A stretch of 32,236 nt of DNA, taken from assembly GCA_023700925.1 (NCBI GenBank), contig JAMPXZ010000011.1, positions 1 to 32,236 of the forward strand, in the 5' to 3' direction. The stretch comes from Oligoflexia bacterium (GTDB lineage Bacteria > Bdellovibrionota > UBA1018). The notes beneath the pieces were generated by a model. It ran no database searches. It saw nothing but the letters and a program-made list of their open reading frames with translations, and was not told the DNA's origin. The translations under genes and the position numbers were made by a program. Below, one piece after another: positions 1-10,307 of this stretch (position 1 is the stretch's first letter; each line of letters begins with the position of its first letter).

Positions 1-511
1 ACGGCTCGGGCGGGCAGGGCTTTTCTTGGAATCCGCTGTATGCGTCATAACAAAGGCCATGTTCATTGGCGATCGCTACAAAACTGAGGCTTCGTCCACC
101 ACTTTGAAAGGCCCCTTTACCTGGAAAGACGTATTCACCACGAATATTCTCGTGTATCGTGGCCAAGTTTCCTCGCCCTGCGATATAAATACTTGATCCT
201 TCATTCAAGATTTTCCCAATACCCTTCAGTCTCCGTTCGCAATCCTCCCTACCTAGAGTACTTCCCTGTGCGATTGTAGTGACCGAATTCTTGTCATCGA
301 GTACGTGCATCATAAATCCATAGCGGTCTTTGATGTCGGCATCGTAAAGATCCTCGCATTCAAGCAGAACGCGGTCGGGCGATACGCTCAGCTCGGCGGC
401 ACCATCGTCCTGAAATAGCACACGATAAGAAGACGTTGCGCATCCGGAAAAAAGTAAACACAGTAAACAAAAACAAATTCCAAGACGCTTATTTCTTTTT
501 GAGTGCTGCAT
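1..511 (-). CDS. Putative lipoprotein, 3' end outside the window
   Basis: Reading leftward from an ATG at 511-509, an open frame of at least 170 codons runs off the window without a stop. The N-terminus has basic residues (QHSKRNKR), a hydrophobic stretch rich in Leu and Cys, and a lipobox LFSGC, so a type II signal peptide with lipidated Cys near residue 22 is likely. The mature part has several Cys and a GRGNLATIHENIRGEYVF-like segment that I do not recognise. The start overlaps the end of the upstream transglycosylase-like gene by 23 bp, which implies translational coupling. Function is unknown. A lipoprotein made together with a wall-cleaving enzyme would be expected to act at the cell envelope, but that is inference. 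Confidence 0.7.
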   Translation of the reverse strand, partial: MQHSKRNKRLGICFCLLCLLFSGCATSSYRVLFQDDGAAELSVSPDRVLLECEDLYDADIKDRYGFMMHVLDDKNSVTTIAQGSTLGREDCERRLKGIGKILNEGSSIYIAGRGNLATIHENIRGEYVFPGKGAFQSGGRSLSFVAIANEHGLCYDAYSGFQEKPCPPEP

Positions 512-1163
512 AGTCCCCCCTGAAATTCTCAAGTGCCGTGTTCTTGAATGGAGTTTTACTTTTCAGAAGTCCTTTGTACTCCAAGATTAACTCCTCCGGG
601 GTTGGAGCATGACCGAGCTTGCTTCTCGCCGTTTCATTTTTACGACAGAGCCATCGCACGGCCAGCGGGATGGCAACTTTTGGATCCTTCAGATCTTTCT
701 GACGGATCTTATTGAAGATAAAATTTTTAGCCTCGCCATTAGGATCTTGTAGGATTTCTAAAGTCGCCTTGGTGATCTGTGCAATTCCAAATGCAGTCAT
801 ATTCTCAGGGGGGTCAAGACGAAAACCAGATTCACTCCCGAGCAGGGCCTTAATTACGTCCGGATCAAGCGGTGGATCTATTGCGAACTTCTTATTAAAA
901 TAGTCCGTCCAAACTGCAATCAGTTCATCGAACTTGTCGGCATTCTTATATTTGCCCAACATTCCTGCGGCCGGCCAAATCAGGTTTTTGCGCTCATAGT
1001 TTTTGAAGACAGAATCGATCTCGTTAGGATCTAAATAAGTGCCCTTGAGACGACGTATATGTTGATCAACGATCGTAATCCCATCAGGATTTTTATTACT
1101 GGTGGGAACATGCCTCGGATGCTCACGTACGGTCGTGACTCTATTTCGGGATTTTTTTGCCAT
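489..1163 (-). CDS. Lytic-transglycosylase-like (SLT fold) protein
   Basis: The 224-residue product carries ESGF (111-114) followed by FGIAQIT (125-131). This is the E-S-x-F ... G-(L/I)-x-Q-(I/L) signature of Slt/MltC-type lytic transglycosylases, with Glu111 in the place of the catalytic acid. These enzymes cleave the MurNAc-GlcNAc bond of peptidoglycan. The first 60 residues are basic and there is no signal peptide, so export would need another route, or the enzyme acts in the cytoplasm or on lysis. The chosen ATG lies 4 nt after the stop of the nucleotidyltransferase gene. A GTG at 1178 would add five residues but would sit directly on the GGAAAG ribosome-binding sequence. The 3' end overlaps the lipoprotein gene. 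The family call is moderate because the domain is short and divergent. Confidence 0.65.
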   Translation of the reverse strand: MAKKSRNRVTTVREHPRHVPTSNKNPDGITIVDQHIRRLKGTYLDPNEIDSVFKNYERKNLIWPAAGMLGKYKNADKFDELIAVWTDYFNKKFAIDPPLDPDVIKALLGSESGFRLDPPENMTAFGIAQITKATLEILQDPNGEAKNFIFNKIRQKDLKDPKVAIPLAVRWLCRKNETARSKLGHAPTPEELILEYKGLLKSKTPFKNTALENFRGDYAALKKK

Positions 1164-1167
1164 TTTG

Positions 1168-1710
1168 TTAAATCGCACCTTTCCAAGAGTCCAGAAAATC
1201 CTGAAACTTATTGCCCATCCCTTCTCTTTTTGACCATGCCTTGATATCAGCTACATCTATAGGGTGCGACTTCGCAACCGCGACGGCTTGATTAAGACCT
1301 TGCCTGTCATTCCAATGAAAATAGGCCGCCAAACGGTCTTTTACGCAATCGGTGGGAGTTAGAAGCTTCAAAGTCCCCTGTGGCAGCTCCATCTTTGCAA
1401 AATTTCGGATTGGTTGATCTCCTATGAGAAAGGCCGCTCCCGGAAACTCGACAGCATATTTCGACTTGGGGTGGGTGTATAGCCGTGATTCAGTCCGCGA
1501 AAAACCGAGCCGAACCATGATCTCATGTATCTTCCGTCGATCAGATAGAGTGACAAAATCCAAATCGAAGCTCTCGTACCTGTTCTCCGTATATATCGAT
1601 ACGACTGCGCCGCCGGACAAGAATGCGTCGATTCCCGCGTGTCGAAGAGTCTCACAAACGATTGCACCCAATTCCGCTAATGACGTTTTTTTGCTTATCT
1701 GCGGTCTCAC
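1168..1710 (-). CDS. Nucleotidyltransferase of the MNT/AbiEii-like type
   Basis: The 180-residue product has SGGAVVSIY (32-40) followed by SFDLDFV (47-53). This is the GG...DxD motif of polymerase-beta-fold nucleotidyltransferases, with Asp49 and Asp51 as likely metal ligands. Length and layout suit small stand-alone enzymes of the AbiEii/DUF6036 kind, which transfer NMP to tRNA or protein and often act as toxins or modify a partner toxin. The start overlaps the stop of the winged-helix gene by 4 bp (ATGA), so the two are translationally coupled. That pairing is usual for MNT-type toxin-antitoxin and abortive-infection modules. The substrate cannot be told from sequence. Toxin activity is inferred from family and arrangement, not shown. 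Confidence 0.75.
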   Translation of the reverse strand: MRPQISKKTSLAELGAIVCETLRHAGIDAFLSGGAVVSIYTENRYESFDLDFVTLSDRRKIHEIMVRLGFSRTESRLYTHPKSKYAVEFPGAAFLIGDQPIRNFAKMELPQGTLKLLTPTDCVKDRLAAYFHWNDRQGLNQAVAVAKSHPIDVADIKAWSKREGMGNKFQDFLDSWKGAI

Positions 1711-2039
1711 AAAGGCTTCCCTCTGCGACGCGGTCGTGTGCGACGGGTAAAATATTTTTCAAGAACTTCAGGCGGCAAACTTTTCAGAGCCTTCTTCAGC
1801 AAGGCGTTCAACTCGTCTCGAAATAAATACCTTGGATTGAATTCATAAACGCGAGTTCGTCCCACAAGTCGGCTCGACAATACTCCCTCGCGTTCGAATC
1901 TCTCCAGTTGCCGTTGAACTTGGCTGATAGCTATGCCGAAGGCGGTAGCAATACCTCTCGGATATGCCGATCCGGAGTTCTCGATCGCAAGAAGAACCTT
2001 TTCCGCTGTTTCGTTTCCAAATAAACCAGTCAGTAACAT
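1707..2039 (-). CDS. Winged helix-turn-helix regulator, partner of the nucleotidyltransferase
   Basis: This 110-residue protein is a single winged-helix domain: TAEKVLLAIENSGSAYPRGIA, then a recognition helix around ISQVQRQLERFEREGVL and a wing with GRTRVYEFNPRY. The C-terminal 30 residues are rich in Lys and Arg. It resembles the DNA-binding antitoxin half (AbiEi-like or MarR/ArsR-like) of nucleotidyltransferase modules. It is the first gene of the four-gene operon and overlaps the next by 4 bp. Directly upstream lie two 12-bp direct repeats and an inverted repeat, so it probably represses its own operon. No clear Shine-Dalgarno precedes the ATG. The operator is only 3 bp from the start codon, which makes a very short or absent leader possible. 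Confidence 0.75.
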   Translation of the reverse strand: MLLTGLFGNETAEKVLLAIENSGSAYPRGIATAFGIAISQVQRQLERFEREGVLSSRLVGRTRVYEFNPRYLFRDELNALLKKALKSLPPEVLEKYFTRRTRPRRRGKPL

Positions 2040-2041
2040 AA

Positions 2042-2075
2042 CTTATATTAAGGGTAATATAACCTTATATTGAGG
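2042..2075 (-). promoter_or_regulatory. Operator-like repeats before the winged-helix gene
   Basis: Two direct repeats, CTTATATTAAGG (2042-2053) and CTTATATTGAGG (2064-2075), differ at one base and are 22 bp apart, about two helical turns. Nested in them is an inverted repeat, TATATT-N6-AATATA (2044-2061). The block ends 3 bp before the ATG, on the promoter side. This is the layout expected for autoregulation by a dimeric winged-helix protein. Confidence 0.55.
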
Positions 2076-2169
2076 TCAAATTTTAAAGCACGCCCCCACT
2101 CAAATTGACTGCTTTAGTTCGCTCGTCAGTTCGAAAGTAAGCTCATATTAGTAGATTATTTTTGAATAA

Positions 2170-2259
2170 TGGCGGAGAGAAAGGGATTCGAACCCTTGTT
2201 ACGGTTTCCCGTAAACACGCTTTCCAAGCGTGCGCCTTCAACCACTCGGCCATCTCTCC
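2170..2259 (-). tRNA. tRNA-Ser, anticodon GGA
   Basis: On the minus strand the gene begins GGAGAGATGGCCGAGTGG and folds as a class II tRNA. The acceptor stem is GGAGAGA/TCTCTCC, the anticodon arm is CACGC-TTGGAAA-GCGTG with anticodon GGA (reading UCC and UCU), and there is a long variable arm (ACGGGAAACCGT) and a T arm with GGTTCGAATCC. The discriminator is G and CCA is encoded. Its 3' end marks the change from GC-rich chromosome to the A/T-rich island. Confidence 0.97.
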
Positions 2260-2438
2260 GCATTTTGAAAGATCAACAACTTGGAATTCGTAAGGATTCT
2301 AAATCGTTAGCATCGACAGGGGTCGTTGTCTAGAGCGAACCGCGTTCGAAGCTTGAAGGGTTTGTGTCGCAAAACCTCCAGCTGGCGTCAACAGAAAGAT
2401 TTCTGATGGCGTTCCCGAGCTCCTCGCAAAGGTGAAGA

Positions 2439-2456
2439 ACTCGCCCCGGGGCGAGT
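2439..2456. repeat. Perfect 18-bp palindrome in the intergenic region
   Basis: ACTCGCCCCGGGGCGAGT reads the same on both strands with no spacer. It sits about 90 bp before the membrane-protein gene at 2545, in the roughly 285-bp gap after tRNA-Ser. The rest of that gap shows no convincing gene. The palindrome could be an operator for a dimeric regulator or a recombinase site. Nothing else identifies it. Confidence 0.4.
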
Positions 2457-2544
2457 AATCGCGACCTACGAATCGCGGGCCCAGCCACGCACGCCACGAC
2501 TCTCGCCTGCCTCCAACGGTCGCGCGATTGCACGCCCAGAAGTC

Positions 2545-3177
2545 ATGCGGTTCCCCGCAAGCTGGCGGCAGATCGAGACGTGGCGGAACTGGGCCGGCTG
2601 GATCGCGCTGAACTTCGCCGCGCCGATCGGGTTCTTCTGGACGTTCCGGACCTTTGGCGCGCGGCCGGCGATCCTGCTCGCCGTGGTGCTCACCCTGGGT
2701 CAGGTTATCTTTCACCGGATTTACGACATCCGCTTCTCGCCGTTCTTCCTGGTTGCTTCGGGTTTCACGCTTGTCTTCGGGTCGATCGATCTTCTGTCGC
2801 TCGCTGAGCCGCGTTTCTTCCGGCTGGCGCCGTTCGCGCAGAACTTCCTGCTCGGAACGGCCTTTCTCGGCACGCTCCTGACGCGGGCGCCGGCGATCGC
2901 CTGGTTCGCGGCCGCGTTGCCGCGCGAGCTGCGGCCGGATCCAGCGCTCATCGAGCAGGGCTACCTGCGGCGGGTGACCCTGGTCTGGGGGCTCTACTTC
3001 CTGGCGAAGGCTGCGCTTTTTCTCTATCTGGGCCTGAACGTCGACCTCGGGGTTCTCATCCTTCTGAGGTCGATAATCGGGGGCGGGAGTCTGACCCTGA
3101 TGTTCCTCGCCGAGCTTGCCTATCGCAAATGGCTCCGGCCGCGCCGCGCGCGGCGCCGGGCTCCACGGGCAGTGTAG
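2545..3177 (+). CDS. Multi-pass inner-membrane protein, function unknown
   Basis: The 210-residue product is dominated by hydrophobic segments at roughly 15-35, 40-56, 65-85, 93-124, 142-162 and 165-190, and ends in an Arg-rich cytoplasmic tail. The conserved-looking stretch FHRIYDIRFSPFFLVASGFTLVFG and the overall layout recall the VC0807/intracellular-septation-protein-A type of small membrane proteins, but I cannot assign it firmly. There is no strong Shine-Dalgarno before the ATG (cagaagtc). It ends 65 bp before the metal-sensor gene, with the Feo promoter region between, so it is probably a separate transcription unit. Confidence 0.65.
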   Translation: MRFPASWRQIETWRNWAGWIALNFAAPIGFFWTFRTFGARPAILLAVVLTLGQVIFHRIYDIRFSPFFLVASGFTLVFGSIDLLSLAEPRFFRLAPFAQNFLLGTAFLGTLLTRAPAIAWFAAALPRELRPDPALIEQGYLRRVTLVWGLYFLAKAALFLYLGLNVDLGVLILLRSIIGGGSLTLMFLAELAYRKWLRPRRARRRAPRAV

Positions 3178-3205
3178 AAAAATCTTGCTTTCCTCCCCAT
3201 AAATA

Positions 3206-3223
3206 CATAAGCATTCGTTTATG
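3206..3223. promoter_or_regulatory. Candidate ArsR/SmtB operator upstream of the feo operon
   Basis: CATAA-N8-TTATG (3206-3210 and 3219-3223) is a perfect 5-bp dyad in an A/T-rich island between two GC-rich genes, 20 bp before the sensor's ATG at 3243. A further CATAA at 3199-3203 makes a direct repeat. Imperfect 12-2-12-type dyads over the promoter are normal for SmtB/ArsR repressors, which usually control their own operon. Confidence 0.5.
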
Positions 3224-3242
3224 AGTGAGAGAGAGGGCCGTC

Positions 3243-3632
3243 ATGAGTGTCGCTGAGGTCGTTACCCCGTCGCGCGCCACAGGCGCCAAGCCGCGCGTGC
3301 GGCTAGCGAGCAGGGCCCGCAAGCGGGCGGCCACGCCCGAAAGCCGTGGCCGGCTCTTTGCGATGCTCGCGGAGACGTTCCAGGCGCTGGGCGACCCCAC
3401 GCGGGTCGAGATCGTCTGGACGCTTTCGCAGGGCGAGCTTTGCGTCGGGGATCTCGCGCGCAAGGTCGACATGAGCCAGCCGGCCGTGAGCCACCATCTT
3501 CGCACTCTTCGCAACCTCAAGCTCGTGCGCGTGCGGCGCGACGGGCGAACGTCTTATTACGCAATCGATGATGACCACATCGGGCGACTCCTGGTTGAAG
3601 GCATCGAGCATGTGGAGGATTTGATCGGATGA
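3243..3632 (+). CDS. ArsR/SmtB-family metal-responsive repressor
   Basis: This 129-residue winged-helix protein has a basic 35-residue N-terminal tail, then ETFQALGDPTRVEIVWTLSQGELCVGDLA and the recognition helix region SQPAVSHHLRTLRNLKLV. ELCVGDL (65-71) matches the SmtB/ZiaR helix containing the alpha-3 Cys. In the last helix Asp110, His112, His123 and Asp126 line up with the SmtB alpha-5 zinc ligands (Asp104, His106, His117, Glu120), so metal sensing is very likely. The ATG at 3243 has AGAGGG in front. A GTG at 3225 would give six more residues without a good ribosome site. Its stop overlaps the feoA start by 4 bp, so it is the first gene of the iron-uptake operon and presumably its repressor. 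The inducing metal is uncertain: the ligands suggest Zn, the context Fe. Confidence 0.87.
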   Translation: MSVAEVVTPSRATGAKPRVRLASRARKRAATPESRGRLFAMLAETFQALGDPTRVEIVWTLSQGELCVGDLARKVDMSQPAVSHHLRTLRNLKLVRVRRDGRTSYYAIDDDHIGRLLVEGIEHVEDLIG

Positions 3633-3919
3633 TGACCCCAATCGTGAAACTCGGGGAGTTGGGCCGCGGTCACGGCGGGAGGATTATTTCGATCGGCGGG
3701 CAGGTGGCCGGCGCGATCGACGCCGCGGGCGAGGGGCAGGACGACCTCGCGCAGCGGCTCATGGAAATGGGTCTGCTCGAAGGCTGTGACGTGCAGGTCG
3801 TCCATGAGGCGCCGTTCGGCGGCGACCCCATCGCGATCCGTGTGCGAGGCGCCCTGGTGGCGCTCCGTCGCAGCGAGGCCAATCAGATCGTCGTCGACAC
3901 CGGGAAGAAAGGGGCCTGA
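3629..3919 (+). CDS. feoA: Ferrous iron transport protein A
   Basis: This 96-residue cytoplasmic protein has the SH3-like FeoA pattern: LGELGRGHGGRIISIGG at the start, LAQRLMEMGLLEGCDVQVVHEAPFGGDPIAIRVRGALVALRRSEANQIVV after it. FeoA-type domains bind the cytoplasmic part of FeoB and are needed for Fe(II) uptake. A segment of about 15 residues (QVAGAIDAAGEGQDD) between the two halves is longer than usual. It overlaps the sensor gene by 4 bp and is separated from feoB by 2 bp, so all three are co-translated. A second ATG follows the first immediately, so the start could be three bases later. Confidence 0.92.
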   Translation: MMTPIVKLGELGRGHGGRIISIGGQVAGAIDAAGEGQDDLAQRLMEMGLLEGCDVQVVHEAPFGGDPIAIRVRGALVALRRSEANQIVVDTGKKGA

Positions 3920-3921
3920 TC

Positions 3922-5814
3922 ATGGCGATCGAGACGCCCCGGGTCGCCTTGGCGGGCAATCCGAACTGCGGAAAAACGGCGCTTTTCAACGCCCTCACGG
4001 GCGGTCGTCAGAAGGTCGGCAACTATCCCGGCGTCACGGTCGAACGCAAGGAAGGCACGCTGGTCATGCCTTCGGGCCGGGTCCTGAGCATTCTGGATCT
4101 GCCGGGAACCTACAGCCTCGACGCCAGCAGCCCCGATGAGCTCATCACGCGCGACGTGATCCTGGGCCTCCAGCCCACCGAGCGGCAGCCCGAGATCCTG
4201 GTCGCGGTCGCGGACGCGACGAACCTCGAGCGGAACCTCGGCCTCGTGCTCGAGCTCAAGGCGCTGGGCAAGCGCGTGGTGCTCGCGCTCAACATGATGG
4301 ATCTCGCCGAAAAGCGCGGGATCGAGCTCGACCTTCAGGCGCTCGCGCGGGAGCTCGGCGTGCCGATCGTCCCGACGGTCGCGGTTCGCGGGCAGGGAAT
4401 CGCGGAGCTAATCCGGAGCGTCGAGGAAAGCGCGAAGGCCGCCGAAAGCGCCGAAGCTGCCGCGGCCCCCGGTGCCTGGAAAAAACCCTCGGTCGCTGAG
4501 ATCCGTGCGCGCTTTGCCGAGGTGGACCGGATCCTCAAGCTCGTGATCCGAAAACCCCCGAAACCCGCGCTCTGGACCGAGCGCATCGACTCGGTCGTGC
4601 TCCACCCGCTTTGGGGCTCGCTCTTGCTTGTTGGGATTCTTATCGTGATGTTCCAGGCGATCTTCACCTGGGCGGCGGCGCCGGCGGAGCTGATCGAGGC
4701 GGGGGTGGCGTGGCTCGGCGACAGCGTCGGTCGTGGAATGGCCGATGGTCCGCTCCGCAGCCTCATCGTCGATGGCGCGATCGCGGGTGTGGGCTCGGTG
4801 CTGGTGTTTTTGCCGCAGATCCTGCTGCTTTTTCTTTTTATCCTGCTTCTTGAGGATTCCGGCTACATGGCGCGCGCGGCGTTTCTCATGGACCGGCTCA
4901 TGAGCCGCGTGGGGCTGCATGGGCGTGCCTTCATTCCGCTGCTGTCGTCGTATGCGTGCGCGGTCCCGGGCATCATGGCGACGCGGACGATCTCGAACCG
5001 CCGCGATCGGCTCACCACCATCCTCATCGCGCCGCTCACGACCTGCTCGGCGCGCTTGCCGGTGTACTCGCTCCTCATCGCGGCGTTCATCCCGAACACG
5101 GCGCTTTTCGGCCCGATCCGGCTCCAGGGCGTCGTGATGTTCGGGTTGTACCTGTTCGGCATCGTGGCGACCCTCGTGATGGCGCTCGTGCTGAGGCAAA
5201 GCGTGTTCCGCGGTCCCAAGTCGCCGCTGCTCATGGAGCTGCCCTCGTACAAGTGGCCGAGCGTTCGCAACATCGTCCTGGGTCTGCTCGAGCGGGCGAA
5301 GCTCTTCTTGCGCCGCGCGGGCACGGTGATCCTGCTCCTCTCGGTCGTGCTCTGGTTCCTCGCGGCTTATCCCAAGCCGCGGGCCGGCGATCCGGTCGAC
5401 GCCGCTCATCCGGCGATCACCTACAGCTACGCCGGCAGGATCGGGCGGGCGATCGAGCCGGCGCTGCGTCCGTTGGGCTTTGACTGGCGCATCTCCGTGG
5501 CGCTCATTCCGGGCTTTGCCGCGCGCGAAGTGATGGTGAGTGCGCTGGCGACCGTCTACTCGATCGAAGGCGATGAGGAAGCCGCGACAGGGGCGCTCAC
5601 CGACCGCCTTGCCAAAGACTGGAGCCTGCCCGTGGCATTGAGTCTTCTCACCTGGTACGTGCTTGCGTGCCAGTGTCTCTCGACCCTTGCCGTCACCCGG
5701 CGCGAGACCAACTCCTGGCGCTGGCCAGCGGTCATGCTGCTCTACATGACGGCCTTGGCGTACGTGGGCTCGTTCGCGACCTACCGCCTGGCGCTTTGGC
5801 TGGGGCTGCACTGA
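3922..5814 (+). CDS. feoB: Ferrous iron transporter FeoB
   Basis: The 630-residue product has an N-terminal G-protein domain: G1 GNPNCGKT (12-19), switch region GNYPGVTVERKEG, G3 DLPG (59-62), G4 NMMD (124-127). A helical spacer follows, then a membrane domain from about residue 230. The gate motifs typical of FeoB are present (SSYACAVPGIMATRTISNRR, TTCSARLPVYSLL), and near the end CQCLSTLAVTRRET. FeoB imports Fe(II) across the inner membrane, driven or gated by GTP hydrolysis. It is shorter than the 773-residue E. coli protein mainly because loops are compact. No essential motif seems missing. The stop shares one base with the start of the next gene (TGATG). Confidence 0.97.
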   Translation: MAIETPRVALAGNPNCGKTALFNALTGGRQKVGNYPGVTVERKEGTLVMPSGRVLSILDLPGTYSLDASSPDELITRDVILGLQPTERQPEILVAVADATNLERNLGLVLELKALGKRVVLALNMMDLAEKRGIELDLQALARELGVPIVPTVAVRGQGIAELIRSVEESAKAAESAEAAAAPGAWKKPSVAEIRARFAEVDRILKLVIRKPPKPALWTERIDSVVLHPLWGSLLLVGILIVMFQAIFTWAAAPAELIEAGVAWLGDSVGRGMADGPLRSLIVDGAIAGVGSVLVFLPQILLLFLFILLLEDSGYMARAAFLMDRLMSRVGLHGRAFIPLLSSYACAVPGIMATRTISNRRDRLTTILIAPLTTCSARLPVYSLLIAAFIPNTALFGPIRLQGVVMFGLYLFGIVATLVMALVLRQSVFRGPKSPLLMELPSYKWPSVRNIVLGLLERAKLFLRRAGTVILLLSVVLWFLAAYPKPRAGDPVDAAHPAITYSYAGRIGRAIEPALRPLGFDWRISVALIPGFAAREVMVSALATVYSIEGDEEAATGALTDRLAKDWSLPVALSLLTWYVLACQCLSTLAVTRRETNSWRWPAVMLLYMTALAYVGSFATYRLALWLGLH

Positions 5815-6017
5815 TGTCCGCGGGCCTGCAGGAGACACTTGCCTTCGCGATCGTGGCGCTGGCGGTCGGGGTGCTCCTTCTGGGTTTTCTGCGCAAGACC
5901 GTGGCCGAACCCTTTTCGCGCTGGCTCCTGAAGCGGGGGCAGGTGAAATGGGCCATGCGGATTTATCCGAAATTTCACAAGAAAAAGCCCCCTTCGGGCT
6001 CGAGCTGCTGTGACTGA
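5814..6017 (+). CDS. Small Cys-tailed membrane protein of the feo operon
   Basis: The 67-residue product has one transmembrane helix (about 8-26, LAFAIVALAVGVLLLGFLR), then a basic amphipathic stretch and a tail ending SGSSCCD. Small FeoB-associated proteins with C-terminal Cys are common next to feoB and occupy the place of FeoC, but this one is only loosely similar. Its ATG overlaps the feoB stop (TGATG), so it is the fourth co-translated gene. The CC pair could bind Fe(II) or a cluster at the cytoplasmic face. That role is inferred from position and residues. Confidence 0.8.
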   Translation: MSAGLQETLAFAIVALAVGVLLLGFLRKTVAEPFSRWLLKRGQVKWAMRIYPKFHKKKPPSGSSCCD

Positions 6018-6054
6018 CAAGGTGCTTGACGCGACGCTTCAGGCTTGATAACGA

Positions 6055-6079
6055 CTCCCTGCTTTTCACTAACAGGGAG
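6055..6079 (+). promoter_or_regulatory. Leader hairpin covering the ribosome site of the 6087 gene
   Basis: CTCCCTG (6055-6061) pairs perfectly with CAGGGAG (6073-6079) around an 11-nt loop. The 3' arm contains the AGGGAG ribosome-binding sequence for the ATG at 6087, so folding would hide it. Confidence 0.4.
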
Positions 6080-6086
6080 ATTTCTT

Positions 6087-6398
6087 ATGTCTTTGGTCCT
6101 GGGTTTCTTGCTCTTGGCTTCGTCGTTGGTTTCGCAGGAGGCTTCGGCTTTCACCCTGCCCACGTACATCCGGCTGACGCCCTACCAGGCCACGGCTGAG
6201 GTCACCAATCCCTACAGCCATCCCATCGCCTGCGTGGTGCACATCGAGGCTCAGCGCAACGATGGCTTGTGGCAGTACGCGAACGTGAACCTGGGCTACA
6301 TTCCCTACGGCTACACGGAGTACGCGTATATCTACACGGGGGCGCCGTTCCACTACGTTTACGCGAACGGCTGGTCCGACTGCGGGTACCTGTACTGA
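6087..6398 (+). CDS. Small Tyr-rich secreted protein, function unknown
   Basis: The 103-residue product starts with a Sec signal peptide (MSLVLGFLLLASSLVSQEASA, cleavage after ASA). The mature part of about 80 residues is unusually rich in Tyr and aromatic residues (LGYIPYGYTEYAYIYTG, FHYVYANGW) and has two Cys that could form a disulfide. The pattern suggests a small beta-sandwich or beta-strand protein exported to the periplasm or outside. The ATG at 6087 is chosen because AGGGAGA lies 7 nt before it and the signal peptide begins there; an in-frame codon at 6045 lacks both. It lies between the feo operon and a strong terminator. I do not recognise the family. Confidence 0.72.
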   Translation: MSLVLGFLLLASSLVSQEASAFTLPTYIRLTPYQATAEVTNPYSHPIACVVHIEAQRNDGLWQYANVNLGYIPYGYTEYAYIYTGAPFHYVYANGWSDCGYLY

Positions 6399-6412
6399 AT
6401 CCAGGGGGCAGT

Positions 6413-6457
6413 AAAAAAAAAGGGCGGGCTCACTTCCTGTGAGCCCGCCCTTTTTTT
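6413..6457. terminator. Strong bidirectional rho-independent terminator
   Basis: GGGCGGGCTCAC (6422-6433) pairs over 12 bp with GTGAGCCCGCCC (6439-6450) around a 5-nt loop. It is followed by seven T on the plus strand and preceded by nine A, which serve as the T tract for the minus strand. It separates the convergent 6087 (+) and 6508 (-) genes. Confidence 0.95.
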
Positions 6458-6461
6458 ATGT

Positions 6462-6484
6462 CGCTCTCCGCTCGGCCCGCGGCC
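6462..6484. repeat. Copy 1 of a 23-bp intergenic repeat
   Basis: CGCTCTCCGCTCGGCC followed by CGCGGCC matches 11121-11143 at 22 of 23 bases. Both copies lie a few bases after a terminator stem-loop and before the 3' end of a minus-strand gene. GC-rich inner parts can fold back. Confidence 0.5.
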
Positions 6485-6507
6485 TTGCTGGCTGGAGGAG
6501 CCCCGTC

Positions 6508-7239
6508 TTAGCGCGCCACCTGCGCGCGGAACGAGGGGTGAATGTTGCAGCCGGTGCCCTTGAAGACGACGGGCAGGCTGGTATTCACGCGAAGCTCGAG
6601 GTGCACATTGCTGTCGGCGGTGTAGCCCGGCGCCGGTAGGTGGATCTTGAGCCCGCTTTCGATGCCGCCCGGAACTTTCACGGCCGGGCCGCACAGATCG
6701 TTGCCGTCGCGATCGAGAACCTGGTGGCCGGAGACCTGCGTGATCAGCCGGATCTCGCGGATCGCCTTGTCACTCACCGGGTCCAGGGCGAGGGTCTTGA
6801 ACACGTCGCGCTTGACCGCCATCAGATCGATGATCTCGCCGGGGCGCTGCAGGACCTCAACTTTCTCGCCGCCGCGGAAGAGAAGCTCGATCGCGTCGAT
6901 CTTGATCAGGATCTGGCCGACGACCGCAACGACGGGCCTGGGGCTTTCGGTGACCGAAGGCGTCGGCTCGGGCTGCTCAGGCGTCTCAGGCACGCTCGGC
7001 AACTCCGGTAGGCTTGGCGCCTCGGGCGTCGAGGTCGGCGAGGCCTTCGGCGTGGAGGTCGGTTCCGGCGCCGTCGGTGTTGATGGGGCCTGCGGCTCGG
7101 CGATGGTGGTATCGTCATCGAAGAAGGTCTGCTGCACCTCCCCCGATTCTCTTACGATACGACTGCTGTAAGGAGCCTCGCATCCCTGGAGAATTCCCAA
7201 TACGATTCCGAATGAAGCCCAGAACGCGTATTTCAGCAT
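6508..7239 (-). CDS. Lipoprotein with Pro/Thr/Ser linker and DUF4382-like domain
   Basis: The 243-residue product has a lipobox GILQGC (Cys20) and a Pro/Thr/Ser/Glu-rich spacer at about 48-100 (TSTPKASPTSTPE-type repeats). A C-terminal domain follows with IKIDAIELLFRGGEKVEVLQRPGEIIDLMAVKRD and IREIRLITQVSGHQV. The IDLM...IREIRL pattern is typical of DUF4382, a beta-sandwich domain found in secreted and surface lipoproteins of unknown function. Cys182 and Cys231 could form a disulfide. AAGGGG precedes the ATG by 7 nt. The gene is divergent from the TPR/beta-barrel gene across about 90 bp, which must hold both promoters. The linker suggests the domain is held away from the membrane. Confidence 0.8.
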   Translation of the reverse strand: MLKYAFWASFGIVLGILQGCEAPYSSRIVRESGEVQQTFFDDDTTIAEPQAPSTPTAPEPTSTPKASPTSTPEAPSLPELPSVPETPEQPEPTPSVTESPRPVVAVVGQILIKIDAIELLFRGGEKVEVLQRPGEIIDLMAVKRDVFKTLALDPVSDKAIREIRLITQVSGHQVLDRDGNDLCGPAVKVPGGIESGLKIHLPAPGYTADSNVHLELRVNTSLPVVFKGTGCNIHPSFRAQVAR

Positions 7240-7331
7240 AAATCACCCCTTTGGTTGCTAGACGCGCCAGGACAGTGTTTCGTTTCAATTCTGGACTAAC
7301 TTGCGATACTATTAGGGACAGGGGTACGGGG

Positions 7332-8768
7332 TTGAGGAAAATCCTTTTTCTAATCATACTGATGGCTGCTTCAGCGGAGGCAAGGCCCCGGGTGCCTGTG
7401 GCCTCGGAGGAGGGATATTTTCGGGCAGCCCTGCGGGCAGCTGGGTCAGGTGATTTGGTTTATAGCCGGAAAGTCCTGCAATATCTTGTCGCCCTTCAGC
7501 CCGGCAGGGGGCTCTACTGGTTCAACTACGGCAACATTCTTCTTCTCTCCCATGAGCACCGGGAGGCGGTCGCGGCTTACCGAAAGGTCGTCGAGCTGGG
7601 CAGCCCGCTCGCGCCCGCGGCCTGGCTGTATGCCGCCAAATGCTACCGCCTCATGGGAGTGCTGCAGTACTCGGCCAGCGCGCACCTGGCTCTTCAGCGC
7701 CTGACGTTGCCGCCGAATCTCGCGGTCGAGGCACAGGTCGAAAAGGCGCTTCTCGTCCAGGCGCTGGAGGCCCGTGCCGCCGAGGCGTACCGCGTCCGCG
7801 ACTTCAACGGCTCCGGGCGGCTCATCGATGCGCTCGAAGCGATCGGCGCGATGTCGCAGGAGGCCCGGGCGGTTCGGGGAATTCTCGCTGAGCGCGGCGA
7901 GGAACCCGCGGTCCAGGAGCGTCACGGGGGAGCGCTGCAGCTCAGCGTGAACTCGGGCTTTGACAGCAATCCTTTGGCGGATGCGAACGCGGAGAATCCC
8001 GCGCGCGCGCCGGTGATCGAAGTGGCGGCGGCTTTTGAGCGTGATCTCGGCGCGCACTCGGCCGTGCTCGGCGGCATCCAGGTCACTGAGCGCGTGGGGT
8101 TGCCGCAGGATCGGCTGCTGCGCCTGGAGCTTCTGGGCTCGGGCCTCGTGCGCGCCGGCAACGTGCGCCTGCTCTTTTATCCACTCGCGCACGGGGATTT
8201 CCTGGGCTCCTCTCCTTACCTCCCGTCCTTCGGCGGCGGCGTCGGCGCCGAGGGGGGTGAGCGCAACACGGTCGGGGTTTTTCTGCGCGTCTTGCGCAAC
8301 ATTCCGCTTCATGACGAGGCCGCGCACCTGCTCGGCTACGATCAGCTTCGCAAGCTGTACCTTGCGATGAATCGCGAGTCGTTTTCGGCAATGCTCTCGC
8401 TGATGGATCGCGTGGACGGAGGGCTGGACCTTTCGCTGCCGGGGGGCGTGCTGCCGCTCGCGGGGCGGGCCACCGGGCCCGGGGTCTCCTGGACCTGGCG
8501 CGCGGGGGCGGGCTGGGAGCTCAACGGTTTTGCCTCGTATTTCTTCCGATCTTTTGACCGCCTCGTGCAGCCGACCCGCGAGCAAAGGCTTGACCGGCAG
8601 CTCGAAGCGGGGGCGCGTATCGCACGCCAGCTCGCTGCGGGAACCGCGGCGCAAATTTCCGTGAATTATCTTCGGAATCGCTCTACGCTCGGAGGTGCGA
8701 GCCTCGATGACAACAACTACTCGCAGTGGATATTAAAGGGAGGCGTTTCATGGCAGACGTCCTGGTAG
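7332..8768 (+). CDS. TPR and beta-barrel outer-membrane-type protein
   Basis: I start this 478-residue protein at TTG 7332 because AGGGG lies just upstream and a good signal peptide follows (RKILFLIILMAASAEA). The in-frame ATG at 7251 would put 27 hydrophilic residues before it. Residues about 30-190 are helical TPR-like repeats (AALRAAGSGDLVYSRKVLQYLVALQPG, YWFNYGNILLLSHEHREAVAAYRKVVELG). The C-terminal part (about 200-478) has alternating polar and apolar strands such as GGALQLSVNSGFDSNPL, and ends in VSWQTSW with an aromatic last residue, as in outer-membrane barrels. A role in an envelope assembly or export system is plausible. The last 19 bp overlap the sigma-factor gene. A possible promoter is TTTCAA-18 bp-TACTAT near 7283-7312. 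Confidence 0.75.
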   Translation: MRKILFLIILMAASAEARPRVPVASEEGYFRAALRAAGSGDLVYSRKVLQYLVALQPGRGLYWFNYGNILLLSHEHREAVAAYRKVVELGSPLAPAAWLYAAKCYRLMGVLQYSASAHLALQRLTLPPNLAVEAQVEKALLVQALEARAAEAYRVRDFNGSGRLIDALEAIGAMSQEARAVRGILAERGEEPAVQERHGGALQLSVNSGFDSNPLADANAENPARAPVIEVAAAFERDLGAHSAVLGGIQVTERVGLPQDRLLRLELLGSGLVRAGNVRLLFYPLAHGDFLGSSPYLPSFGGGVGAEGGERNTVGVFLRVLRNIPLHDEAAHLLGYDQLRKLYLAMNRESFSAMLSLMDRVDGGLDLSLPGGVLPLAGRATGPGVSWTWRAGAGWELNGFASYFFRSFDRLVQPTREQRLDRQLEAGARIARQLAAGTAAQISVNYLRNRSTLGGASLDDNNYSQWILKGGVSWQTSW

Positions 8769-9337
8769 GCAGCCTGGCACCGGCAGCCGCATCGGACGAG
8801 GACGCCGAGCTTACGGCGTTGGTCGTGCGCGCCCAGAAGGGCGACGAAGGGGCATTGGCGGGCCTCGTCGAGCGCATCCAACGGCGGGTATTCCGTTTCT
8901 GCTTTCACCTTTGCCGCGACCCGGGGCGCGCCGAGGATCTTTGCCAGGAGGCGCTCGTCAAGGCGCTCAAGCAGCTTCCCAAGCTCGAGGAGCCCGCTAA
9001 GTTCCAGAGCTGGGTCATGCGGATCGCGAAGAACCAGTTTCTCGATGAAATGCGTCGCCCCGGACATACCCAGGAGCTTTTGGAGGACGATCCCGTGGAG
9101 GCGAGCACGGTTCGCGATGTGGGAGATCCCACTGCGGTTGCGCAGGATGTCTCCTTGGAAGTGCGTGAAGCGCTTCAGAAATTGAAGCCGGACGACCGTA
9201 TCGTGCTTCTTCTCGTCGAGGTGGAGGAGTGGTCTTACGCCGAAGCCGCTGAAATCATTGGGATCAAGGAAAATGCCCTGCGTTCGCGGCTCCATCGGGC
9301 CCGCGCCGCTTTATTAAAGATCTTTAACAACGAGTGA
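8750..9337 (+). CDS. ECF-type RNA polymerase sigma factor
   Basis: The 195-residue product has region 2 (LVERIQRRVFRFCFHLCRDPGRAEDLCQEALVKALKQLP ... FQSWVMRIAKNQFLDEMRR) and region 4 (LEVREALQKLKPDDRIVLLLVEVEEWSYAEAAEIIGIKENALRSRLHRARAAL). That is the two-domain architecture of ECF sigma factors, which direct polymerase to stress or envelope promoters. ATG 8750 has AAAGGGAGG 7 nt upstream; an in-frame ATG at 8726 has none. It overlaps the preceding barrel gene and is followed by a probable anti-sigma gene, so its activity is likely controlled from the membrane. Confidence 0.92.
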   Translation: MADVLVGSLAPAAASDEDAELTALVVRAQKGDEGALAGLVERIQRRVFRFCFHLCRDPGRAEDLCQEALVKALKQLPKLEEPAKFQSWVMRIAKNQFLDEMRRPGHTQELLEDDPVEASTVRDVGDPTAVAQDVSLEVREALQKLKPDDRIVLLLVEVEEWSYAEAAEIIGIKENALRSRLHRARAALLKIFNNE

Positions 9338-9359
9338 AACGAAACGTCCCGGTGAACCG

Positions 9360-9375
9360 TCCTATGCGTAGGAGA
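9360..9375 (+). promoter_or_regulatory. Short hairpin over the anti-sigma ribosome site
   Basis: TCCTA (9360-9364) pairs with TAGGA (9369-9373) across a TGCG loop. The 3' arm overlaps the AGGAGA Shine-Dalgarno for the ATG at 9383, so translation of the anti-sigma gene could be damped relative to the sigma gene. Confidence 0.35.
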
Positions 9376-9382
9376 GTCCATT

Positions 9383-9931
9383 ATGCCGAGCAGGTCAGCT
9401 GAAGACGAAGTCCGGAAACTCCTGAGTCCTTTGCGCGACGGCGTGCCCGAGCCGAGCCCGTTCCTCAAGACGCGGGTGCTCGCCGAGCTGCGCGAGCAGC
9501 GTCGGCAGCGGTCTGTTCGCAGCGTGTGGGCCCTGTGGAAGCCGGCTCTCGGCTTCTCGGCCGCCGCGGCGCTGATGCTTGTTCTTTGGACGGGGCGCGA
9601 AGCGCGCGGACCCGTTTTCCCGGCGACGGCGGGCCAGCCCGTGGCCGTCAAGGTCGACATGAAGGAATGGGGCGGACAGAAAGTCGCCTCGGCGAAGGTG
9701 GAGCTGCCTCGCGGCGTTCGCTTCTATTCGCGCAGCTTCCCGGCGATCGAGCAGAAGTCCACGCTTGATCTGGCCTGGAAGGAAGACGGCGCACCCGGCG
9801 CGCTGCCGATCGTCGTCAAGGCCGATGAGAACGGCCTCAAGACGGTGCGGGTGAAGTTCTTCGACGAAGGCAAGAAGCTCGTCGGGGAGCGGCTGCTGAA
9901 GATCCGCTTCGAACAGGTGGACCAGGGATAG
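9383..9931 (+). CDS. Probable membrane anti-sigma factor
   Basis: The 182-residue protein has a charged N-terminal helical segment (1-48), one transmembrane helix (about 52-68, ALGFSAAAALMLVLWTG) and a periplasmic part rich in beta-strand patterns (KVASAKVELPRGVRFYSRSF, TVRVKFFDEGKKLVGERLLKIRF). Position directly after an ECF sigma gene and the single-span N-in topology are typical of anti-sigma factors that hold the sigma factor at the membrane. The N-terminal domain lacks the HxxxCxxC zinc motif of ZAS anti-sigma factors, so this is a zinc-free or unrelated type. The ribosome site TAGGAGAG is 8 nt from the ATG. Confidence 0.7.
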   Translation: MPSRSAEDEVRKLLSPLRDGVPEPSPFLKTRVLAELREQRRQRSVRSVWALWKPALGFSAAAALMLVLWTGREARGPVFPATAGQPVAVKVDMKEWGGQKVASAKVELPRGVRFYSRSFPAIEQKSTLDLAWKEDGAPGALPIVVKADENGLKTVRVKFFDEGKKLVGERLLKIRFEQVDQG

Positions 9932-9947
9932 GATAAAGGGAGTGATT

Positions 9948-10307
9948 ATGAAACGGCGTAACTGGATGATTTTCGCGGCAGGGGCCCTGATGATGGCAAG
10001 CGGCGCGTTCGCGGCCGATCAGGTGAAGATGGCGACCTCCGAGGATCTCAGCGCCTTTGACGCCCAGCTCGGCGCGGGCGCGCCCGCGCAGGTGCGTCCG
10101 GCACCCGCCAAAAACGGCCTCGGCTCGATCGTTTCCGAGGAAGCCAAGAAGATGAAGGAAGCCGCACCCTCCGCGCCTTTCGGCCAGCAGGTCAAGGCGC
10201 GCGCGAATCAGAACGGACTCGGCCTCGGTCGCGCCTCCAGTGTTTCGGGCGGTGGACAGGGCGTGGGTCTTGAGAACAAGGCCGTCGGTAAGAAGAATAA
10301 AAAATAA
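9948..10307 (+). CDS. Small exported protein of the ECF locus
   Basis: This 119-residue protein has a Sec signal peptide (MKRRNWMIFAAGALMMASGAFA) and a low-complexity mature part rich in Ala, Gly, Lys and Gln. NGLG occurs twice and the tail GKKNKK is basic. ATG 9948 is chosen because AAAGGGAG is 6 nt upstream; an in-frame GTG at 9942 would touch that sequence. It lies 16 nt after the anti-sigma gene, so it is probably in the same operon. No family recognised. The mature protein is likely disordered. Confidence 0.7.
   Translation: MKRRNWMIFAAGALMMASGAFAADQVKMATSEDLSAFDAQLGAGAPAQVRPAPAKNGLGSIVSEEAKKMKEAAPSAPFGQQVKARANQNGLGLGRASSVSGGGQGVGLENKAVGKKNKK

Follow-up and report, generated by a model that had tools for sequence, protein, structure and literature searches.

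A muramidase-lipoprotein pair joined to a toxin-antitoxin-like module at a tRNA-Ser(GGA) gene of an Oligoflexia bacterium

The stretch of DNA studied here (the window, 32,236 bp; G000:C214:1-32236) is an entire contig of an Oligoflexia bacterium whose genome comprises 3.35 Mb in 262 contigs and is 88.6% complete. At one end of it, four minus-strand open reading frames (ORFs) run to the contig end, starting 130 bp away from a tRNA-Ser(GGA) gene, on its 3' side. They encode a winged-helix/helix-turn-helix (HTH) regulator, a minimal nucleotidyltransferase (NTase), a protein with the SLT fold of lytic transglycosylases, and a lipoprotein. The comparison with related genomes showed that this operon consists of two modules with separate histories, and that the SLT-lipoprotein pair belongs to a mobile family, undescribed so far, with members in dozens of related genomes. 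With somewhat better than even confidence, we interpret the locus as a tRNA-integrating element, either a remnant or one that is not autonomous, in which a toxin-antitoxin (TA) promoter drives a muramidase/antidote pair as cargo; it would combine two toxin-antidote-type pairs.

The SLT muramidase and its exported partner

The SLT protein of the window scored 19.5 bits against the Pfam SLT model, just under the curated cut-off of 21.3, which its relatives pass (45.7 bits). Its AlphaFold model (pLDDT 86) matched phiKZ gp144, MltE, and Slt70 in Foldseek, with lytic transglycosylases or g-type lysozymes making up all of the best matches (probabilities reaching 1.0, lowest E-value 1.5e-3). Residues E116, G131, and Q134, corresponding to the catalytic Glu and the GxxQ motif, were invariant in 70 of 70 sequences. 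Judged by the modelled fold, the gene product is a predicted lytic transglycosylase-like muramidase. The Met encoded at 1163, the sixth residue of the longer SLT ORF, is invariant in the relatives; therefore, ATG 1163 is favored as the start over the codon at 1178. The protein shares with Family 1 lytic transglycosylases (Slt70, MltE, and phiKZ gp144) the catalytic fold, the Glu within SESxF, and GxxQ, but differs from them in the absence of a signal peptide, in an N-terminal double-hairpin domain (VxxHxR...TxVxxHxR), and in its constant exported partner.

A scan of 84,980 species yielded 80 loci, nearly all in Bdellovibrionota plus Legionellales-type gammaproteobacterial metagenome-assembled genomes, and the whole family comprises about 85 loci; one cultured carrier is Bdellovibrio sp. 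qaytius (L074). No relative of the SLT protein was found in the phages, plasmids, and IMG/VR records searched, and no prior description of the pair was found in the open-licence literature. In close relatives, the SLT proteins were 48–69% identical to that of the window, and the overlapping lipoproteins 27–65%. The two genes remain paired in other families, orders, and classes, where they occur without the HTH and NTase genes; the same is true of a second copy in the window's own genome (G000:C91, L022 9690-10884).

By a hydrophobicity rule, used instead of SignalP, an export-like N-terminus was called in only 2 of 86 SLT proteins vs 81 of 82 partners. The adjacent partner is thus targeted to the compartment in which the toxin would act, as is general in effector-immunity pairs. 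Most partners share four cysteines, and they diverge fast: where SLT identity was 60–70%, the median identity of the partners was 33%, while the distances within the two families correlated (Mantel r 0.68, reached in 0 of 1000 permutations). In six loci (L085, L097, L102, L113, L129, and L130), the same slot is filled by an unrelated exported protein of 266–291 aa with NWTGGAHCC and DLDxDGxPEI motifs, for which only sub-threshold matches to FG-GAP (E-value 0.012) and PliI (E-value 0.15) were obtained. Partners lacking a nearby SLT gene were found at G041:C1:76104, G039:C16:4706, and G089:C1:230228. Conversely, SLT genes lacking a partner lay at contig ends or were broken, and the partner was present wherever it could be seen. 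Taken together at the level of sequence, the catalytic conservation, the fast-evolving partner, and the orphan partners form a signature of a putative toxin-antidote pair.

A comparable arrangement is known from Xanthomonas citri, in which the lysozyme-like effector X-TfeXAC2609, devoid of a signal peptide, nevertheless gets into the periplasm and kills its own cell in the absence of its secretion system unless the lipobox-containing X-TfiXAC2610 is present (PMC10933484). As in the window, a cytosolic wall hydrolase without a signal peptide is combined with an exported lipobox protein, in the window a putative inhibitor; however, X-TfeXAC2609 is a GH19-type enzyme tied to a type IV secretion system (T4SS), whereas the enzyme of the window has the SLT fold. 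As a separate observation, in locus L121 the SLT gene is immediately preceded by an additional gene of the partner type (5296-5871, plus strand), resembling a spare antidote.

tRNA ends and exchangeable front modules

A prediction made earlier from the window's sequence alone (the original prediction) had described the four genes as one A/T-rich operon in a tRNA-Ser island. The ORF coordinates bore out this layout: the HTH and NTase genes overlap by 4 bp, the NTase and SLT genes are separated by 4 nt with the SLT start at ATG 1163, and the SLT and lipoprotein genes overlap by 23 bp, a spacing retained in many relatives. GC content was 46–48% across bases 1–2500 and 60–68% in the rest of the window. 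The tRNA gene lies on the same minus strand, so the operon reads away from its 3' end. The features of the locus are listed in Table 1.

Table 1. Features of the tRNA-Ser(GGA) locus in the window
Feature	Position	Strand	Evidence and reading
Lipoprotein partner, C-terminus cut	2..511	-	FSG-C lipobox-like site, four conserved Cys; probable periplasmic antidote
SLT-fold muramidase, about 224 aa	489..1163	-	Pfam SLT, AlphaFold, Foldseek; GTG start at 1178 possible
Minimal nucleotidyltransferase, 180 aa, motif GGAVVSIYTENRYESFDLD	1168..1710	-	phrog_13263; likely toxin
Winged-helix/HTH regulator, 110 aa	1707..2039	-	phrog_18520 and weak HTH families; likely autorepressor/antitoxin
Putative operator/promoter region	2041..2079	-	Two imperfect palindromes and TTGACC box; direct repeat, upstream alignment
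tRNA-Ser(GGA), probable integration-site gene	2170..2259	-	ARAGORN, Rfam; in G010 and G024, islands are attached at the orthologous tRNA

The position at a tRNA end is a property of the family. Within 1.5 kb of the SLT pair, 20 tRNA genes were found against 1.5 expected, the expectation being derived from the rest of the same contigs and not from a whole-genome map. All 24 tRNAs in the SLT loci point their 3' end toward the pair; in L104, the called ORF start overruns the tRNA, but the homologous portion starts beyond it. The pair lies between directly repeated copies of the tRNA end in L123 (30 bp, element of about 2 kb), L100 (18 bp), L093 (33 and 25 bp), and L066 (17 bp). In two of these loci, several repeat-bounded units, each with TA-type genes, stand in tandem at one tRNA. 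At tRNA-Pro(TGG) in L093 (reverse orientation 1258-7438), a unit with a katG-like catalase-peroxidase gene and BrnTA is followed by DUF4258/DUF2283-type genes and the SLT pair (katG, BrnA, and DUF2283 were named from sequence and not from a model); this arrangement in L093 is reminiscent of cassettes stored at the end of a tRNA gene. At tRNA-Leu(TAG) in L066 (reverse orientation 1448-10196), three units are stacked, and the SLT pair occupies the middle one.

The original prediction of an island at tRNA-Ser is further supported by two relatives (G010 and G024), in which complete islands, 7.9 and 6.9 kb long, occupy the orthologous tRNA-Ser(GGA). Each has a tyrosine integrase gene next to the tRNA and terminates in a 58-nt repeat of the tRNA 3' end; an HTH_17 protein is encoded within the G010 island. 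The window itself contributes the tRNA end, and the bounding repeat was seen in the four bracketed loci and at the same tRNA in these two genomes. The two integrases (L136, G010:C75; L137, G024:C1) are 51% identical and are candidate helpers of elements that share this tRNA. Beside them, L136/L137 encode proteins of unknown function of 496 and 540 aa, the former without a Pfam match.

Near the SLT pair, an integrase was detected in L118/L154 and L068, and a fragment of one in L085; none was seen near most SLT loci, unlike in tycheposons and phage-inducible chromosomal minimalist islands (PICMIs), which encode their own integrases. Tycheposons and PICMIs (PMC10803314 for the latter), small integrative satellites targeted to tRNAs, are likewise compact integrated elements with accessory cargo. 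Similar in layout are cis-mobilizable elements (CIMEs) and accretion arrays (PMC5704250), which, like L066 and L093, have no integrase, are bounded by att-like tRNA-end repeats, and stand in tandem at one tRNA; the elements described here differ in being only 2–4 kb long, in their occurrence in Bdellovibrionota, in often carrying TA genes and one cargo, and in that no conjugative parent was seen.

A TA-type module was the front neighbor of the SLT pair in at least 18 loci, a lower bound drawn from the top 25 Pfam families and not a formal enrichment test. These modules were HVO_A0114/TumE, HigBA, BrnT, MntA/HepT, AbiEii, DUF6036, Fic, DUF4258, and the HTH/NTase pair of the window. The SLT N-terminus is fused in frame to HepT in L028 (9402-10454, minus strand) and to a Polbeta NTase in L126 (2322-3428, plus strand); it is also fused to an NTase remnant in L105 and to an extension labeled STAS-like from sequence only in L115 (5662-6630, plus strand). 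The combination seen in the window is therefore a single case of a design that recurs in the family and whose front module can be exchanged.

These results divide the original claim of coupling. The SLT pair does often stand behind TA modules at tRNA ends, but the module families vary, and a fixed four-gene system is contradicted by the near-universal absence of HTH and NTase genes from the homologous loci, the second copy in the same genome included. Behind tRNA-Ser ends in L061 and L075, for example, the SLT pair stands without the TA pair. The same four-gene order was found elsewhere only in G023, as a divergent and decayed copy at the same tRNA-Ser(GGA), where the same HTH gene is frameshifted, what is left of the NTase gene continues in frame into a divergent SLT gene, and the partner is present. 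The original prediction had itself named unlinked homologs of the transglycosylase and lipoprotein as evidence against it, and this is largely what the loci show.

The regulator and nucleotidyltransferase

The other part of the original prediction, a TA-like HTH/NTase pair, was supported. The regulator matched phrog_18520 (E-value 2.8e-20) and, weakly, HTH families, and it carries a conserved C-terminal RPRRxGKPL; the NTase matched phrog_13263 (E-value 3.3e-29). The NTase was present in 25 of 97 relative genomes, and in all 21 loci examined, including those on Bdellovibrio and Leptospira plasmids, the HTH gene stood directly upstream of it; the pair on the Bdellovibrio plasmid has an integrase-like gene behind it. 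Two imperfect palindromes, centered at about 2048 and 2069 and 21 bp apart, precede the HTH gene together with a TTGACC box at 2079-2074. Over 22 loci, the mean paired-palindrome score at a spacing of 21 bp was 9.95 vs 8.18 ± 0.18 in shuffles (maximum 8.77), this spacing having been picked after a scan of 14, and a spacing of 22 scored near background. Palindrome pairs recur upstream of the HTH gene with varying sequence, e.g., GACTC..GAGTC and ACCTA..TAGGT. ORF calls in the neighboring and upstream regions were mechanical. The upstream layout resembles that of an autoregulated TA operon, and the regulator and NTase are likely, on sequence grounds, to form a TA-like pair.

The closest known likeness is to the type IV TA system AbiE (PMC3985639), with which the pair shares a two-gene operon, a first gene for a (here predicted) DNA-binding protein with two repeats at the promoter, and a pol-beta NTase with the GG...DxD motif at long spacing. 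The AbiE motif hG[G/S]...DhD was found as G33 G34 x14 D49-L-D51 (GGx14DLD), with G33, G34, D49, and D51 invariant in 18 sequences, and the bicistronic organization as overlapping genes with tandem palindromes, the repeats being only candidate binding sites. The AbiE motifs III (KLxAaxxR) and IV (+DxxD) were absent as defined, the region reading KDRLAAYFHWNDRQGLNQA; hence, the pair was not filed as AbiE. Further, AbiEi has a two-domain layout, for which the 110-aa regulator of the window is too short, and neither AbiEii PF08843 (DUF1814) nor any other Pfam family matched the NTase at E-values up to 1. A relation to MNT/HEPN (MntA-HepT) systems was not indicated either: no HEPN match was obtained, and the partner of the NTase is a winged-helix protein. 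A PDB search with the NTase profile returned one chain only (E-value 0.076).

The NTase is common on plasmids (H4-H15) of Leptospira noguchii and L. interrogans, where it is annotated as hypothetical. On the Leptospira plasmid L153, tblastn located the HTH gene upstream of the NTase, though the gene table lists none.

Proposed mechanism and alternative explanations

According to the proposed reading of the locus as a tRNA-integrating element with two toxin-antidote-type pairs, the window would show the portion nearest the tRNA of an integrative element that had entered at the tRNA-Ser(GGA) 3' end. One autorepressed promoter would drive all four genes: the regulator would bind the paired palindromes, repress the operon, and restrain the NTase, as in type II/IV TA modules. 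The muramidase may leak to the wall, be set free when cells lyse or are preyed upon, or take another route, and the lipoprotein would inhibit it in the periplasm. Carriers would be protected, while cells that lose the pair, or neighbors without it, would suffer wall cutting. On loss of the element, the stable NTase and muramidase would remain without fresh regulator and lipoprotein, and the cell would be harmed.

Several points weigh against this interpretation. Since the window is the entire contig, the C-terminus of the lipoprotein is cut and the element's distal end is out of view; the contig stops inside the element, and any attR repeat or integrase, like the full extent of the element, would lie beyond it. 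No TA model matched the regulator and NTase above its cut-off; for the NTase, this covered the TA families of Pfam, NCBIfam, and PADLOC. The lipoprotein has no recognizable inhibitor fold: its fold-search matches were all noise (E-value 0.14 or worse), and PDB searches with the partner profiles returned nothing significant. The fast divergence of the partner also fits a surface-exposed lipoprotein that is no antidote. Finally, no dedicated delivery route for the SLT enzyme is known.

In an alternative view, the HTH/NTase pair is only a stabilizer, and the SLT protein and lipoprotein are an effector-immunity pair used for attack, with a dedicated secretion system carrying the effector to competitors or prey. 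The effector-then-immunity gene order, the export signal on the partner alone, and the fast divergence and swap of partners agree with it, and the Xanthomonas T4SS effectors provide a precedent. However, the type VI secretion system (T6SS) marker VipA/TssB (PF05591) was absent from all 97 genomes, including that of the window, with a positive Escherichia coli control, which led to rejection of a T6SS effector. A T4SS effector was also rejected: VirB4 (PF03135) was found in 10 of 97 genomes, not in that of the window, and was not associated with the SLT gene (present in about 5 of 42 carriers and 5 of the 55 remaining genomes). No secretion genes recurred beside the pair, and no XVIPCD match turned up in a general Pfam scan, in which no XVIPCD model was run. 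Because the T6SS is absent and the T4SS rare in carriers, we regard a secreted effector as unlikely.

It is equally unlikely, in our view, that the two modules are chance neighbors in a decaying island without shared regulation. Decay is seen in L105, where the HTH gene is frameshifted and an NTase gene with an internal deletion is fused to an intact SLT gene, and TA genes also occur downstream of the SLT pair in some loci. In the window, however, none of the four frames is interrupted; they overlap and read in one direction from a single promoter with a putative operator, and the TA modules recur upstream of the pair in other loci.

Two further explanations appear improbable, to a similar degree. 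SLT enzymes generally accompany conjugation systems and virions, and the strong linkage of the pair to mobile elements would agree with a role in transfer, with the enzyme opening the wall for DNA uptake or transfer and the lipoprotein excluding a second copy; the N-terminal VxxHxR repeats are reminiscent of phage proteins. The phage, plasmid, and IMG/VR searches speak against this, and the elements of about 2 kb encode nothing further for transfer. The original prediction suggested an envelope-targeting defence, conflict or lysis system. One such possibility, an abortive response to phages or predators with the NTase as sensor or actor and cell lysis by the SLT enzyme, could draw on the phage resistance conferred by NTase TA pairs such as AbiE (PMC3985639) and on a weak PADLOC match of the regulator to PDC-M05A (E-value 1.5e-7). 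In most loci, however, the SLT pair lacks any NTase and its front module is interchangeable, which argues against a fixed sensor-effector coupling, and no holin-like gene was found. Neither defence nor lysis received specific support, and a toxin-antidote cargo fits the data better. A phage lysis cassette was rejected on the same phage and IMG/VR searches, the missing holin, and the 170-aa length of the lipoprotein vs short outer spanins (spanin match E-value 0.19). An integron cassette was not supported either, with gaps to the next host gene as short as 12–13 bp (L032) and repeats that proved to be tRNA ends.

More tentatively, and as a possibility we hold with limited confidence, the family may constitute a distinct, undescribed class of mobile addiction module working across the inner membrane, a two-compartment addiction cassette: a cytosolic muramidase with an exported lipoprotein antidote that spreads by integrating at tRNA ends, needs no secretion machinery, and is combined under one promoter with intracellular TA modules that can be exchanged. 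Should the partner prove to be an antidote, mobile-element cargo would carry toxin-antidote logic across the inner membrane with no secretion system. The tRNA-end arrays suggest how such bacteria, many of them predators, may collect accessory genes in small TA-stabilized units.

On the opposite side of the tRNA (window 3225-5814, plus strand), the genes appear by sequence to be ordinary host genes encoding an ArsR-type regulator and FeoA-like and FeoB-like proteins.

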